Shown piece after piece: positions 18,616 to 23,244 of a stretch of 26,231 nucleotides of DNA; positions within the stretch are counted from its first letter, which is position 1, and every line of letters starts with the position of its first letter. The translations under genes and the position numbers were made by a program. The notes under the pieces were generated by a model that saw nothing but the letters and a program-made list of their open reading frames with translations, was not told the origin of the DNA and searched no databases. The DNA comes from a virus. The stretch is taken from positions 1 through 26,231 of IMG/VR virus record IMGVR_UViG_3300035665_000210. The stretch is one strand, 5' to 3'.

Positions 18616-19236
18616 TCACTCTCCTATGATTTTGCGTAGTGCTGCAACTTTGGCATCGACTTCAGCCAAAAACTTTTTGACTTCAATTTCGGTTTCCTTA
18701 ATCCACTGATCGTCGCGTTCAACGCGGTAGACAAAAAGCTGGGCTTTGGCTGGCATCCGTGGGTCGAATACAACGTAGTCGCACCAAAACCGCCCAGCGC
18801 AGGCCATTTGCCACTGCATTTGCGTGAAATACTTGGATTCCACTGGATCGGCTGACAGCCAGCATTCCAGCGCGGTCTTGCTGTCAGGGCATTTAATCTC
18901 GACCATGCCGTCAGCGCCCACCAAGCCGTCAGGCGAGGCGCCAGAGGCTTCAATCATTGGGTGCGGTATGAAACCCACTTCATCCACTAAAACGCCCTTA
19001 GAGGCTTCGTAAGCCGCCCGTGCGAAGGGTTCCTGATCGATACCCCATTGCATTGCGGCGCTGGTAAACCCTTCGGACTTGGTGCCAGTTACTCGTTCTA
19101 ATACAAGCTGGGTCAGGTAATTAGCGCGGCTGGCGCTGTAGCCGGTTTTGGTCCTGGCTAGTACGTCGGCCACGCGAGACGCGGTGACCTTACCTAGCCT
19201 GGCTGCGAACCAATCTTCTGTGCGTTGCTCATCCAT
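18616..19236 (-). CDS. YqaJ-type phage recombination exonuclease
   Basis: 206 residues, close to the 226 of lambda exonuclease, whose fold it shares. Motifs: RTEDWFAARLGKVTASRVAD at the N-terminus; WGIDQEPFARAAYE with Glu69; GASPDGLVG with Asp103; and EIKCP with Glu113 and Lys115, the PD-(D/E)xK core. Such enzymes degrade one strand of double-stranded DNA 5' to 3' and hand the 3' tail to an annealing protein, here the ERF protein upstream in the operon. The start overlaps the 58-aa gene by 8 nt. Confidence 0.92.
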   Translation of the reverse strand: MDEQRTEDWFAARLGKVTASRVADVLARTKTGYSASRANYLTQLVLERVTGTKSEGFTSAAMQWGIDQEPFARAAYEASKGVLVDEVGFIPHPMIEASGASPDGLVGADGMVEIKCPDSKTALECWLSADPVESKYFTQMQWQMACAGRFWCDYVVFDPRMPAKAQLFVYRVERDDQWIKETEIEVKKFLAEVDAKVAALRKIIGE

Positions 19237-19405
19237 TTTGTTGCCTCGCTTTCATCATTGCGTCCGCTATTTCGTATGCTTTTTCAGCAAACGAATCTAC
19301 AGATGCGTTTACGTTAGACGCTAATAAACCCTGCATTGCTTTGGCTGCAAAGTAATCGCGTAGTTCCATTCCTACGGCCCCGGTGGCTGATGGAAATGCT
19401 TTCAT
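19229..19405 (-). CDS. 58-aa protein between ERF and exonuclease
   Basis: The short frame opens with ATG at 19405, overlapping the ERF stop by 4 nt (ATGA), and runs to TGA at 19229, overlapping the exonuclease start by 8 nt. The product begins MKAFPSATGAVGMELRDYFA and contains AAKAMQGLLA and EKAYEIADAMMKARQ. The LRDYFAAKAMQ...AYEIADAMLKAR pattern is common in small proteins of phage early operons, so I judge this real despite its size. It is helical and probably binds a partner; function is unknown. Confidence 0.8.
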   Translation of the reverse strand: MKAFPSATGAVGMELRDYFAAKAMQGLLASNVNASVDSFAEKAYEIADAMMKARQQNG

Positions 19406-20019
19406 TGGGCTTTTTCCTTTTTAGCGCGTTCGACACGGGTTTTCTTTGCTGCGATTACCTTAGCCTGCAATTCCTGATGCTCACCACAAGCCTCAATCGC
19501 TGCCTTAAATACGACCGCTAATTCCTCGCTGTTGGCGCTGGCATCAATGGCTGACAGGTGGTCGGTAATGTCTGGCAGCGGTTTGCGGCGGCTGGCAGCG
19601 TTGCCATCGTCATCTTCGGGCGCAATGCCGCACGCAGCCATCAGCGAGTATCGACGGGCATAGGTCAACGCCGAGCCGTAGCCTTGTGGGTCATGTTTGC
19701 TGGCCGGAACGTGGAGCTGGCCGCAGGACATAATTTCGCCGCTTTCGTGGACAAACACGGTTTCGATAATGATTCCGTCGCTGCACATACTAGTGCGCTG
19801 GGTCATGGCAATGCCGTGATTATTTAAGGCATCGATAACCGCTTCGACGCAGGCCGACAGGTCGGCGTAGCGTGACCGGAAATGCGGGTTGGTGGCTGAT
19901 TTAAGCGCAGGGCCGAATTCGCGCTGGGCTTTGACAAACGCTGCTGCTACTTTGCTGAATGTGGTTTCCATATATTCCTCTTGTCGCTGTACGGTTTCAT
20001 AAAATTGTTGTTGTGTCAT
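19402..20019 (-). CDS. ERF-family ssDNA-annealing recombinase
   Basis: 205 residues, the same size as P22 Erf. The N-terminal core has FSKVAAAFVKAQREFGPALK, NPHFRSRYADLSACVEAV at about 44-61, and the family signature GSALTYARRYSLMAACGI at 115-132 followed by the acidic EDDDGN. The C-terminal third is a Lys/Glu-rich helical tail. ERF proteins form rings on single strands and promote annealing, acting with the YqaJ exonuclease two genes downstream. The start overlaps the small membrane-protein gene by 4 nt. Confidence 0.92.
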   Translation of the reverse strand: MTQQQFYETVQRQEEYMETTFSKVAAAFVKAQREFGPALKSATNPHFRSRYADLSACVEAVIDALNNHGIAMTQRTSMCSDGIIIETVFVHESGEIMSCGQLHVPASKHDPQGYGSALTYARRYSLMAACGIAPEDDDGNAASRRKPLPDITDHLSAIDASANSEELAVVFKAAIEACGEHQELQAKVIAAKKTRVERAKKEKAQ

Positions 20020-20216
20020 GGCTGCACCATTATTTCTTGCCCTACTGAGGCGGGTTCGACGGTTACGGCTGCGTCTACCATTGCTGGCTTTTCTTCGATG
20101 GGTTGCTCAATTACTGGTGGGTCAACTGGCTTTTGGCCGAGCGTCCAGACCGCTAGGTATCCAGCTACAAATACCGGCACGGCTACGACAAACGCGGTTG
20201 ACTTGAGCAGTTCCAT
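20016..20216 (-). CDS. Small single-span membrane protein
   Basis: 66 residues. A transmembrane helix at about 7-26 (TAFVVAVPVFVAGYLAVWTL) is followed by a Pro/Glu/Val-rich tail (PVDPPVIEQPIEEKPA). The tail probably faces the periplasm or cytoplasm as an extended linker. The stop overlaps the ERF start (ATGA) and the start abuts the stop of the 32-aa gene. It is the second of two adjacent tiny membrane proteins in an early operon, which suggests a host-envelope role such as superinfection exclusion; that is inference. Confidence 0.7.
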   Translation of the reverse strand: MELLKSTAFVVAVPVFVAGYLAVWTLGQKPVDPPVIEQPIEEKPAMVDAAVTVEPASVGQEIMVQP

Positions 20217-20315
20217 TTAGAAGATCGCCATTGCAACCCACAGTAGGACGTAAAAAACGGCGGCGATACAGACTGCCGCCAGTGCTAGGACAAGATCGCT
20301 AGGTTCGCGGTTCAT
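20217..20315 (-). CDS. 32-aa membrane microprotein
   Basis: ATG at 20315 to TAA at 20217. The product is MNREPSDLVLALAA followed by VCIAAVFYVLLWVAMAIF: a short charged head and one transmembrane helix. The start overlaps the preceding stop by 4 nt (ATGA) and the stop touches the next start, the same close packing as its neighbours, which supports translation. Function is unknown. Confidence 0.65.
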   Translation of the reverse strand: MNREPSDLVLALAAVCIAAVFYVLLWVAMAIF

Positions 20316-20494
20316 GCTGTCCTCACTGTGAAGCCTTCGGCCTCAAGCTGGTCAGCGACGATAGGTGCCGCGCTTTTGCGCACCTGGATGCTAATTGCGC
20401 CGTCGAAACGGGCTTTGGCTGCGGTGGTTTCGGCCACGAAGGTGATCGTGGTGTCGTTGAAATCGGAAGGGAGGATAACGAAGTCGATGAACAT
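20312..20494 (-). CDS. 60-aa early protein
   Basis: First full gene after promoter P1, with a strong AAGGAG ribosome site (20501-20506) six bases from the ATG. The 60 residues show alternating beta strands and a helix (MFIDFVILPSDFNDTTI ... PIVADQLEAEGFTV), a compact alpha/beta fold without recognised motif. The SAAPIVADQLEAEGF segment resembles a C-terminal helix-strand unit. It overlaps the 32-aa gene by 4 nt. Unknown function; probably an early accessory protein. Confidence 0.75.
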   Translation of the reverse strand: MFIDFVILPSDFNDTTITFVAETTAAKARFDGAISIQVRKSAAPIVADQLEAEGFTVRTA

Positions 20495-20504
20495 TTAAAG
20501 CTCC

Positions 20505-20525
20505 TTAAAAGACCCGTGAGGGCAT
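20505..20525 (-). CDS. Possible 6-aa leader peptide (MPSRVF) at P1
   Basis: An ATG lies exactly 6 nt after the P1 -10 box, so the transcript would begin at or next to it. The frame reads MPSRVF and stops at TAA just at the ribosome site of the 60-aa gene. The P2 transcript has a counterpart beginning MPS. Translation is speculative; the matching placement in both leaders is the reason to list it. Confidence 0.3.
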   Translation of the reverse strand: MPSRVF

Positions 20526-20531
20526 GGGTAG

Positions 20532-20560
20532 ATATTAAGCTAGGTTTACATTACTGTCAA
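20532..20560 (-). promoter_or_regulatory. Promoter P1 (sigma-70 type) for the leftward recombination operon
   Basis: -35 TTGACA (20560-20555) and -10 TAATAT (20537-20532) are separated by exactly 17 nt, a near-consensus promoter reading leftward. The -35 lies in the last codons of the upstream 58-aa gene. It repeats the P2 design closely, including the spacer segments TGTAAA and AGCT. An operator-like element (20534-20549) lies across the spacer and -10. Confidence 0.85.
20534..20549. promoter_or_regulatory. Operator-like element, copy 1
   Basis: ATTAAGC-TA-GGTTTAC, the weakest palindrome of the three but in the same place relative to the P1 -10 box as copy 2 is to P2. Confidence 0.45.
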
Positions 20561-20722
20561 GCGGTCAATCAACATATAAGCGACGGCGAAGGATTCTGCT
20601 TCTGCCTGCGTGCCGCAGCGTTCTATGGTCTTGCCGGTTTTCTGGTTTTCGCTCGTAGTCCACTCGACCACGCACCAAGTTGGGCGCTGGTCGGCATCGT
20701 CGTAGTATTCAACTGTGTACAT
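20546..20722 (-). CDS. 58-aa early protein
   Basis: The frame could open further upstream, but the ATG at 20722 (MYTVEYYDDADQRPTW...) is favoured because the preceding part would cross a hairpin and reads poorly, and AGGGGC lies before this ATG. The product has beta strands (YTVEYYDD, WCVVEWTTSE) and a helix (AEAESFAVAYMLIDRL), compatible with a small ferredoxin-like or dsRBD-like fold. Unknown function. Its final codons contain the P1 -35 box. It is the second gene behind P2. Confidence 0.65.
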   Translation of the reverse strand: MYTVEYYDDADQRPTWCVVEWTTSENQKTGKTIERCGTQAEAESFAVAYMLIDRLTVM

Positions 20723-20737
20723 GGCTGCCCCTAATAC

Positions 20738-20755
20738 GCCGGGGTTTCTCCCGGC
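20738..20755 (-). other. Intergenic hairpin between two early genes
   Basis: A perfect 6-bp GC stem GCCGGG/CCCGGC with a 6-nt loop lies between the stop at 20763 and the start at 20722. No T run follows on either strand, so it is not a standard terminator. It may protect the mRNA or define processing. Confidence 0.5.
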
Positions 20756-20762
20756 TGATTGA

Positions 20763-20963
20763 TTAAAACGAATAAACATTTTCTGTTTTTTTAAGTCTTT
20801 TTGTTCCCAAAATTCCATGCTCACGATCAACAGCTTGCCAAGAAATGTTGCTAGTTTTCATTTTTCTCCAGCCTTTGCGGAAACTTGGGTGAAATAACTT
20901 TTGCTCCAACCAGTTAAAAGTCGCGCCTGTTTCTAGCAATTCGATCAATTTAGCTTTGTTCAT
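20763..20963 (-). CDS. 66-aa early protein, first gene behind P2
   Basis: Strong AAGGAG ribosome site (20970-20975) before the ATG. The 66 residues are basic: MNKAKLIELLETGATFNWLE, then KLFHPSFRKGWRKM. The ATFNWLE...LFHPSFRKG phrase recurs in small early proteins of other phages as far as I recall, without a known function. A basic helical N-terminus might bind nucleic acid. It lies where a lambdoid phage would often carry cI, but is too short and unlike a repressor. Confidence 0.75.
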   Translation of the reverse strand: MNKAKLIELLETGATFNWLEQKLFHPSFRKGWRKMKTSNISWQAVDREHGILGTKRLKKTENVYSF

Positions 20964-21075: not shown

Positions 21076-21231
21076 ATGGATACTAAAACCGCAATCAATC
21101 TAGCTGGCAGCGCGTCAGAACTTGCCAGATTGCTAGGCGTTACCAGACAGGCAATTAGTCAGTGGGGCGAAAAGCTGCCACAGCAGCGGATTTGGCAGCT
21201 ACAAGTATTGATGCCGAGTTGGTTCAAATGA
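21076..21231 (+). CDS. Cro-like transcriptional regulator (51 aa)
   Basis: ATG at 21076 to TGA at 21229-21231. The product contains SASELARLLGVTRQAISQWG followed by EKLPQQRIWQLQVL: a helix-turn-helix (LARLLGVT as first helix and turn, RQAISQWG as recognition helix) with the I-S-Q-W-G phrase typical of the P22 Cro family, which is about 60 aa. It diverges from the leftward operon across a shared control region, exactly where cro sits in lambdoid phages. There is no ribosome site; the probable transcript starts at the AUG. It should repress P2, P1 and its own promoter through the palindromes nearby. Confidence 0.85.
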   Translation: MDTKTAINLAGSASELARLLGVTRQAISQWGEKLPQQRIWQLQVLMPSWFK

Positions 21232-21243
21232 GGAAAAATTAGG

Positions 21244-21249
21244 TATGAT
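21244..21249 (+). promoter_or_regulatory. Possible -10 box for the structured RNA
   Basis: TATGAT lies 6 nt before the first hairpin of the RNA. An upstream TTGGTT at 21219-21224 is 19 nt away, longer than optimal, so this promoter is weak or doubtful; the RNA may instead be read from PR. Confidence 0.35.
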
Positions 21250-21251
21250 TG

Positions 21252-21360
21252 ACCCACGCTTGGCGGCGTGTACAGGTAAGCCTTAGACGGGACTCTGCTG
21301 GTACCTGCCAGTCCGCCAACATCCACACGGATGAGAGTCTCGCCTAAGGCTTTTTTTTTG
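21252..21360 (+). ncRNA. Structured RNA with three-way junction, long-range pairings and terminator
   Basis: Hairpin H1: CACGC (21255-21259)/GCGTG (21266-21270), loop TTGGCG. Closing stem P1: 21278-21296 with 21334-21352, 19 positions with one A-C mismatch and one G-U pair. Inside P1: hairpin P2 CTGG/CCAG (21298-21311, loop TACCTG) and hairpin P3 CATCC/GGATG (21320-21333, loop ACAC). The H1 loop TTGGCGG (21260-21266) is complementary to the junction strand CCGCCAA (21313-21319), and CAGGTA (21273-21278) is complementary to the P2 loop TACCTG (21302-21307). A run of nine T (21351-21359) follows P1. No tRNA features such as a T-loop GTTCGA are present. It could be a cis-acting attenuator or a separate small RNA. 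Confidence 0.75.
21278..21359 (+). terminator. Intrinsic terminator formed by the closing stem of the structured RNA
   Basis: The GC-containing P1 stem ends directly in nine T, so rightward transcription from PR should stop here unless the RNA refolds or an antiterminator acts. This is the position of tR1 in lambda. Confidence 0.75.
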
Positions 21361-21370
21361 GGGAAAAGCG

Positions 21371-21625
21371 ATGTTGAAATTTCAGGCTATCGAAGGTTGT
21401 GAAGCCTTCATTAATGATGCCGGTTGCTTGGTAATTAAGCAATACGATCTAACGATGGGGCAAACAGTCATGGTGATTTTAACGCCTGCGATGGCGTGGG
21501 AAATTGCCAGAATGGTTGATGATTATCACGAAGAAATGATTTTTGCTTGGGCTGATGGATTAATTGAAAGACATGAAAATCCAAAAAATGACGAGGCAAA
21601 AAATGGCACGCATAAGAACCATTAA
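21371..21625 (+). CDS. 84-aa early protein after the terminator
   Basis: The ATG follows GGGGAAAAGCG directly after the terminator T run. The product starts MLKFQAIEGCEAFINDAGCL and continues with two strands (LVIKQYDL, TVMVILTP) and a helix (AWEIARMVDDYHEEMIFAW), ending in a charged tail. It has no recognised motif. It overlaps the O-like gene by 23 nt. Since it is the first gene that depends on readthrough of the terminator, its expression may report the state of the RNA switch. Confidence 0.65.
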   Translation: MLKFQAIEGCEAFINDAGCLVIKQYDLTMGQTVMVILTPAMAWEIARMVDDYHEEMIFAWADGLIERHENPKNDEAKNGTHKNH

Positions 21626-22337
21626 GCCTGAGTTTTGGCGCGACGAAAAACTGTCAACAATTAATGCCGAGGCTGCTTTGCTGGCGGTCGGCCTGCTAAA
21701 CCACAGCGATGATGAGGGCTACTTTAACGCTCATCCAAAGCTGGTTGAATCCGACGTTTTCCCACTTCGCACATTAAAAATTACTACTACCGAACTACTA
21801 CGGGAGTTGTCTGGTATTGGTTATATCGAGCTTTTTTCGGGGTCTGATGGCAAGACTTATGGTCGAGTTGTCAACTTTGAAAAGCATCAAGTCATCAACA
21901 AGAAAACACCTAGCAAAATCAAGGCATTTTGCGATATACCGCACGACTACGGTAGTGATCCGGTAGCCCTACCCTCTGGAAAGGAAAGGAACAGGGAACA
22001 GGGAAAGGGAACAGGGAAAAGGAATAGCGCAACTCCGTTGCGCCCCACCGATGTCGATGAAACGGTTTGGGACGATTGGATCGCTTTGCGTAAACGCAAA
22101 AACGCCGTTGTTTCCGAAACGGTAATCAAGGCTGCAAAAGACGAAGCTGCCAAACTCAACTGGTCGCTGGAGCAGTTTTTGCGGGAATGGTGCCTGCGCG
22201 GTAGCCAGGGGCTGAAGGCTGATTGGATTCAAGGCCAGCCAAAAGTTTACGAAAGCGCCAAAGACCGCAGCCGCCGTGAAATCATCGAAGGATTAACCGG
22301 AAAGAAAAGCCATGACACCACAATTATCGACATCTGA
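21603..22337 (+). CDS. Replication initiation protein, phage O-like with winged-helix N-terminus
   Basis: 244 residues from ATG 21603 (ribosome site GAGG at 6 nt); an upstream in-frame ATG at 21564 lacks support. The opening MARIRTIKPEFWRDEKLSTI and the following HSDDEGYF...LVESDVFPL are typical of phage replisome-organiser proteins with a DNA-binding winged helix at about 1-95. A basic Gly/Lys/Arg/Asn linker at about 128-141 coincides with purine repeats in the DNA. The C-terminal part (VWDDWIALRKRKNAVVSETV, then SLEQFLREWCLRGSQGLKADW) resembles the partner-binding domain of O-like proteins. It overlaps the P-like gene by 26 nt. Confidence 0.8.
   Translation: MARIRTIKPEFWRDEKLSTINAEAALLAVGLLNHSDDEGYFNAHPKLVESDVFPLRTLKITTTELLRELSGIGYIELFSGSDGKTYGRVVNFEKHQVINKKTPSKIKAFCDIPHDYGSDPVALPSGKERNREQGKGTGKRNSATPLRPTDVDETVWDDWIALRKRKNAVVSETVIKAAKDEAAKLNWSLEQFLREWCLRGSQGLKADWIQGQPKVYESAKDRSRREIIEGLTGKKSHDTTIIDI
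21980..22023 (+). repeat. Purine-rich direct repeats, candidate replication origin
   Basis: Within the linker of the O-like gene, the unit GGGAACA or close variants occurs several times (GGAACAGGGAACAGGG, then GGGAACAGGGAAAAGG). The stretch is almost free of pyrimidines on the + strand. Lambda-type phages carry their origin as iterons inside gene O at the same place in the gene. Confidence 0.55.
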
Positions 22338-22998: not shown

Positions 22999-23244
22999 AT
23001 GAGAAAGAATCCAATACCACCGCACGCGCTGATGGACGATCTGCGCAACAGGTTGCATTGCGTCAACGATTGTGAGTTAGCGCGTGAGATTGGTTGCGCA
23101 CCTAGCATGATCTCAAAGTTTCGGCACGGCACCTGTGCGGTATCGGCGGCGTTAATTTTGGATATGCACGAAAAGTTTGGTATGTCGGTGGCTGAAATCA
23201 AAATGTTGATTCAGAGGGCAGAAGATGAACGTAACCTTTGCTGA
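22999..23244 (+). CDS. Small XRE/Cro-type helix-turn-helix protein
   Basis: 81 residues with ribosome site AAGGAAA before the ATG. CELAREIGCAPSMISKFRHG at about 25-44 is a clear helix-turn-helix, followed by AVSAALILDMHEKFGMSVAE and a helical end. Proteins of this type with the LAREIGCAPSMISKFRHG...LILDMHE pattern are frequent in nin-like regions of phages and in bacterial genomes. It could be a second regulator, perhaps of middle or late genes. The DNA target is unknown. Confidence 0.8.
   Translation: MRKNPIPPHALMDDLRNRLHCVNDCELAREIGCAPSMISKFRHGTCAVSAALILDMHEKFGMSVAEIKMLIQRAEDERNLC

Follow-up and report, generated by a model that had tools for sequence, protein, structure and literature searches.

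Background

The C4 RNA (Rfam RF01695) of the P1/P7 phages and its target motif (c4-a1b1, RF03163) are both catalogued, and the P1 record annotates a1, b1 and C4. It has been shown that RNase P processes C4 at the 5' end of its closing stem (PMC5320573). The CI RNA of P4 comes from the leader of the replication operon and stops that operon prematurely by pairing with targets in the leader (PMC4825925). This RNA is a member of the C4 family, and seqA lies in an isrK-type unit that is separate from CI. IsrK of Gifsy-1 is a short terminated RNA from a phage leader which acts in trans on its own read-through transcript (PMC4825925). In pT181 the leader of the replication gene holds a pre-emptor and a terminator, and an antisense RNA brings about termination (PMC5703833).

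Here we describe an element in a 26,231-nt stretch of viral DNA (the window, meaning the whole stretch analysed) which is a member of a phage RNA family absent from the catalogues searched and is not a product of chance. With moderate confidence we read it as a self-targeting antisense RNA like C4 and P4 CI that is fused to an attenuator like that of pT181, such that the terminated product would force the termination of sister transcripts.

Organization of the element

The -10 box TATGAT and the full set of helices and complements can be read directly from the window, all on the plus strand:

21244..21249, plus strand: -10 box TATGAT, its position conserved among homologues
21255..21270, plus strand: H1 (CACGC-TTGGCG-GCGTG), 5'-terminal hairpin showing element a in a UUGGCG (YUNR) loop
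21260..21266, plus strand: element a (target), TTGGCGG
21273..21278, plus strand: element b (target, specificity), CAGGTA
21278..21296, plus strand: 5' arm of the closing/terminator stem P1, with one A/C mismatch in the stem
21298..21311, plus strand: hairpin P2 (CTGG-TACCTG-CCAG), its loop being b' TACCTG (21302-21307)
21313..21319, plus strand: a' CCGCCAA, in the junction 3' of P2
21320..21333, plus strand: hairpin P3 (CATC-CACACG-GATG)
21334..21352, plus strand: 3' arm of P1, pairing with 21278-21296
21351..21359, plus strand: nine-T U-tract of the intrinsic terminator, whose first T's also pair with the stem foot

The first-pass annotation of this stretch had described the helices, the hairpins, the nine-T tail and both complementarities, and all of them are found in the sequence where it placed them. 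It had also taken TTGGCGG as the loop of H1; the complementarity of this heptamer to CCGCCAA stands, but the loop is TTGGCG and the final G closes the H1 stem. The complements TTGGCGG/CCGCCAA (a/a') and CAGGTA/TACCTG (b/b') are exact, they are nested with each other and both cross the closing stem, as had been proposed. The very strong structure claimed for the region is borne out by folding, the minimum free energy of the 122-nt stretch being -49.2 kcal/mol (z = -3.4), and 1 of 200 dinucleotide shuffles folds equally well. Nested 7+6-nt long-range complements of the a/a' and b/b' kind arise in 27 of 5000 dinucleotide shuffles; the window alone is therefore suggestive, and it is the comparative evidence that settles whether they are real.

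The GC-rich stem is followed by a U-tract, as in an intrinsic terminator, and a simple terminator scan did not pick it up, the probable reason being the branched stem. Together the promoter box, the RNA and the terminator make up a compact unit of about 105 nt. A leader peptide was considered and rejected: in the window an ATG inside the -10 box is followed by 13 codons across H1, but this ATG is missing from homologues, for example L004 and L008.

Comparison with C4 and other described RNAs

What the first-pass annotation had missed is the C4/P4-CI layout, together with a putative antisense-RNA kissing loop in the 5' hairpin and a candidate promoter box belonging to the element itself. Both C4 and this element have a closing stem that holds two hairpins, and in both of them b' occupies a hairpin loop and a' the single-stranded junction that follows directly on its 3' side. 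A co-linear a-b target lies upstream in the same transcript, with a spacing of 6 nt here and 7 nt in P1, and a begins with UUGA in P1 and with UUGG or UUGA here. The cores are near-identical, with CTGCTGG, b', CCAGT and an a' ending in CAAC; they align as CTGCTGG-TTTCACTAACG-CCAGT-CTGTCAA-CCC in P1 C4 and CTGCTGG-TACCTG-CCAGT-CCGCCAA-C in the window. The differences are as clear as the likenesses. The accessory hairpin is 5' of the b' hairpin in C4, whereas P3 is 3' of a' here and in all aligned members. Here the closing stem doubles as the terminator and runs into a U-tract, and the a-b target is within the first ~25 nt, in and beside its own 5' hairpin, whereas the target of C4 is ~70 nt away. 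P1 has a second target, a2-b2, at the ribosome-binding site of the gene under control, and none was found here by exact matching in 120 loci. The Rfam C4 covariance model did not match the window or six related records even at an E-value of 10, although the positive controls P1, P4 and N15 matched it strongly, and conversely R1, the covariance model of the family described here, does not find P1, P4 and N15. By analogy, then, the element appears to work like C4 and CI, but it is not filed as C4.

Like P4 CI, the element would be an antisense RNA from the leader of a replication operon with an upstream target and premature termination as the outcome. CI, however, is separate from seqA and has a second target, seqC, downstream, whereas here the terminator is the putative antisense RNA and the upstream target is the only one found. 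Like the pT181 and pIP501 attenuators, the element sits in a replication-gene leader that combines an intrinsic terminator with a pre-emptor pairing permissive for read-through; these plasmids transcribe their antisense RNA from the opposite strand, whereas the antisense RNA here would arise by termination on the same strand. The element would resemble IsrK (RF01394) as a short terminated RNA of a phage leader with a trans effect on the transcript that reads through it; IsrK, however, activates translation and has another structure, and it gave no match to the element.

Distribution of the family

The first-pass annotation had called this an unrecognised structured RNA, and the Infernal comparison agrees, because Rfam 15 gave no relevant match to the element at the gathering threshold or at E<=10. 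All counts of family members given here are lower bounds. An exact pattern for H1 plus b was found in nine viral contigs, eight of which carry the whole element, and patterns that fix only a and a', or only parts of the stem, each gave 64 to at least 120 contigs. The combined regular expression gave at least 239 matches in at least 235 contigs, at least 3 of the matches being spurious (the second match in each of L364, L111 and L021). Outside environmental viral contigs the family is nearly absent, be it from cultured phages, plasmids or bacterial genomes. Among cultured phages BLAST returned only the pair MW202462/MW202544 (Manatee Spring), and nothing for a third subfamily; no member was found in the plasmids searched. 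From the pattern matches in bacterial genomes a structural filter retained only L244, in a Burkholderiales MAG, and in about 800 genomes from this MAG's order a covariance search turned up two carriers. A divergent member with the pair TTGGTCG/CGACCAA, L297 (G070:C30:17722-17833), is in a genome of that same order and is probably a prophage or a binned phage contig. In MW202462.1 a 'hypothetical protein', UOF77143.1, is annotated at 33654-33896 antisense across the element, and it is probably not a real gene. Under the few terms looked up in it, a 2025 review of phage small RNAs (PMC12197685) has no resembling RNA.

Conservation and covariation

All helices and both crossing pairings, a/a' and b/b', are conserved by covariation. 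Among 63 distinct aligned members 97.7% of the cells in the four helices are paired, and both-side changes are seen in 25 of 30 pairs compared to 19.6 expected by shuffling (396 cells compared to 110); when the partners are slid out of register, pairing falls to 35-46%. Taken singly, H1 is paired in 98.7% of cells with both-side changes in 4 of its 5 pairs, P1, for which 17 pairs were counted, in 97.4% with such changes in 15, P2 in 97.6% and P3 in 98%, each of the last two with 3 of 4 pairs covarying. The T-rich tail is kept in nearly all homologues and is less clear in L026, L051 and L128. The H1 of L029 (3495-3621) is longer and less typical.

The H1 plus b pattern and the a plus a' pattern fix a/a', and the two stem patterns fix part of the stem; hence the covariation evidence for a/a' was drawn only from the stem-pattern sets and from covariance searches, in which a was not fixed. 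In all of the 161 elements examined a and a' are exact complements, and five exactly complementary versions occur in total. Three came from patterns that do not fix a (TTGGCGG/CCGCCAA, TTGGCAG/CTGCCAA and TTGACGG/CCGTCAA) and two from covariance searches of whole genomes or records (TTGGTCG/CGACCAA in L297 and TTGGCCG/CGGCCAA in L404). The 48 distinct loops comprise about 40 b sequences, and almost every one of these is complementary to the b' of its own element; the contiguous match is 5.8 nt on average with the own partner and 3.6 nt with swapped partners, and the observed score was reached in 0 of 20,000 permutations. The match is poor in some members, with 4 nt or less in 9 of 129. Compensatory changes, which the first-pass annotation had proposed looking for, are thus present among homologues in both crossing pairings.

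Predicted two-state folding

The folding switch was predicted from the equilibrium folding of progressively longer truncated RNAs, and not from a kinetic simulation. In the nascent window RNA 21256-21320 the form with a/a' and b/b' predominates (P 0.95 and 0.87, respectively) and lasts to 21340, and from 21344 on the terminator wins. The nascent form has a/a' above 0.5 in 58 of 63 homologues, and at full length it is below 0.5 in 63 of 63. The pairings a/a' and b/b' are thus predicted to be an anti-terminator that forms first, the terminator forming later, and by this folding the pre-emptor and the terminator in the leader are mutually exclusive. If about a dozen nt are hidden in the polymerase, the anti-terminator would still be favoured when the polymerase is at the U-tract. 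In the putative processed RNA the median unpaired probability over the 63 homologues is 0.98 for a' and 0.71 for b'.

It had been suggested that the crossing pairings either make a pseudoknot or compete with the terminator. Folding supports competition, and with it the earlier idea of an attenuator. Since no nucleotide separates b from the stem, the b/b' helix and the complete 17-pair stem should be sterically incompatible, which makes the pseudoknot the less favoured form.

Transcription unit and gene context

Matches to TATAAT at 5 or more of 6 positions were found in 49 cases at 15-20 nt upstream of CTTGGCGG and in 2 or fewer at any other position among 65 representatives, and despite this shared -10 position the sequences upstream of the element are mostly unrelated among them. 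Transcription is predicted to start at about A21256, the foot of H1; with the -10 box just upstream, H1 and its UUGGCG loop would be the 5' end of the RNA. A strict promoter scan did not call the window promoter because its -35 is weak. The flanking genes are as follows:

21076..21231, plus strand: P22-Cro-like gene, upstream (PF14549, E 1e-13)
21371..21625, plus strand: first downstream gene, 84 aa, no known family, start codon 12 nt after the U-tract
21603..22337, plus strand: replication initiation protein gene (phrog_1408, E 5e-37)

A P-like helicase loader gene follows the replication initiation gene, so the neighbours named in the first-pass annotation, Cro-like upstream and replication-side downstream, hold. 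Among members the start codon is usually within about 15 nt of the U-tract, and the genes 3' of the element are mostly replication-initiation or primosomal ones, with ParB-like, HNH endonuclease, DNA polymerase and helicase genes as well. The gene on the 5' side is Cro-like in many members (the window and L017 among them), and elsewhere it is SSB-like, by inspection, or another. The tR1 position that had been assigned to the element is right insofar as it follows cro in the window, but it is not a fixed tR1 of the cro operon: with a promoter box of its own it need not be one, and other genes precede it elsewhere. Judged from this sequence context, the element is a portable leader.

Some further observations were made on the neighbouring genes. 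HNH/NUMOD4-type endonuclease genes are directly 3' of the element in L022, L032, L040, L044 and L068 (L032 confirmed by PHROGs), a pattern that might reflect insertion of homing endonucleases at this site or their use of the switch. In L029 the gene after the element resembles Rha-type phage regulators by sequence, which recalls P1 C4 ahead of the antirepressor. To the left of the cro region the window has RecE-like/YqaJ exonuclease and ERF annealing genes (18616-20963, minus strand), and the minus-strand ORF 20763-20963 that adjoins cro matched no family. An S24-type repressor was not found in the window.

Action in cis or in trans

The main rival is a purely cis-acting attenuator, in which a/a' and b/b' are the anti-terminator and the choice is made by transcription speed, a ribosome, a protein or a small molecule. 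It would fully explain the covariation, which a wholly intramolecular switch would produce just as well, and also the folding switch. It also agrees with the finding that a strict promoter scan of the window, a weak test, showed no minus-strand promoter-like site inside the element, and that no separate antisense gene was found within it. What it leaves unexplained are four observations. The first is that a starts with UUG[G/A], that is YUNR, in every version, and this UUGR is invariant even though other positions of a accept G-C/A-U exchanges. Loops of the YUNR type are known to enhance the pairing of antisense RNAs (PMC4485353), and a UUGGCG loop has also been used in engineered loop-loop attenuators (PMC3753616). 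The second is the fast change of b, the fastest-changing part in close relatives. In a test that compares phages with near-identical downstream genes, the per-site change of b' (0.106) was about 6 times that of the stem arm (0.016; 20 clusters, 10 v 1, Wilcoxon p = 0.01). With the a plus a' pattern set, which has no stem bias, the values were 0.133 and 0.022 (6 v 0 of 10 clusters), and at an 85% clustering threshold of this set the contrast shrinks to 0.134 and 0.095. The third is that one genome, L280/G836 (IMGVR_UViG_3300034053_000030), carries three elements, at 20299-20412 (minus strand), 23008-23116 (minus strand) and 27261-27371 (plus strand), the a and b codes of which do not match one another. 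The fourth is the C4-like core. The YUNR conservation, the fast change of b, the orthogonal paralogues, seen in one genome, and the C4 layout favour action in trans, as far as we can infer, and are not proof of it. We regard the cis-only attenuator as unlikely, while taking it seriously.

It is improbable, in our view, that the element is a trans-acting small RNA whose main target is a host mRNA or that of another phage, the upstream a-b site being merely a sponge or self-lock. The compact promoter box-RNA-terminator unit of ~105 nt and the exposed a' and b' would suit such an RNA, but exact-match searches found no further a-b site in 120 loci of phage contigs, which leaves the element itself as the sole evident target; the diversity of b speaks against a conserved host target, and the close start codon in most members points to a leader. 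A plain strong intrinsic terminator of the tR1 type with incidental extra structure, which would suit the strong stem and the U-tract in the position expected of it after cro, is very improbable and is largely refuted by the covariation of H1, a/a' and b/b', also in phages with non-cro upstream genes, and by the -10 box downstream of cro. Least probable of all is an RNA of the put type, modifying the polymerase, or else a riboswitch that binds a ligand. Both were raised in the first-pass annotation, and position and fold complexity are all that speaks for them: pairing segments make up the conserved core and the variable parts form complementary codes, not the core of a ligand pocket, there was no Rfam match at any threshold used, and nothing tested points to a PUT-like RNA.

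Proposed mechanism

In the self-targeting antisense attenuator that we prefer, polymerase from the upstream promoter would make H1, with a in its YUNR loop, and b, and then the terminator unit with b' and a'. When an RNA is made on its own, a/a' and b/b' would pair once a' emerges and, because they sequester the 5' half of the terminator, polymerase would tend to read through into the early genes by default. Some transcripts would terminate. The terminated unit, possibly trimmed to its closing stem as RNase P trims C4, would expose b' and a' and may pair in trans with the a-b target on nascent RNAs made later, which would free the terminator arm of the nascent RNA and force it to terminate. 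The level of this product would climb with genome copies and so give a delayed negative feedback on the early/replication operon, and a later-arriving phage with the same a/b code would also be shut down.

As to the physiological role, a search of 52 records, most of them >30 kb, for four families of lifestyle genes found a tyrosine integrase in 3 and an S24 repressor, ParA and a serine recombinase in none, in records that may be incomplete. Classical lysogenic immunity like that of P1 and P4 is thus not supported, finding little in the gene content, and we have downgraded it. With integrase and S24 repressor mostly absent, feedback control or superinfection immunity is likelier, and copy-number-dependent early-gene shut-off and superinfection immunity ('incompatibility') would fit better.

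Implications

Tentatively, and with some doubt, we suggest that a self/non-self code made of RNA alone is carried by many environmental phages that look virulent, in which the terminator is its own antisense repressor and the hypervariable b/b' is a 'password' that times replication and excludes superinfection by the same type, new b versions being favoured by frequency-dependent selection. If this is true, an abundant and uncatalogued class of phage regulatory RNA would unite C4/CI immunity RNA and plasmid attenuation in ~105 nt, and the terminated transcript itself would be the repressor. The family supplies dozens of natural candidate orthogonal pairs and may serve as a metagenome marker of phage 'incompatibility groups', and RNA-based superinfection immunity without classical lysogeny genes becomes directly testable.
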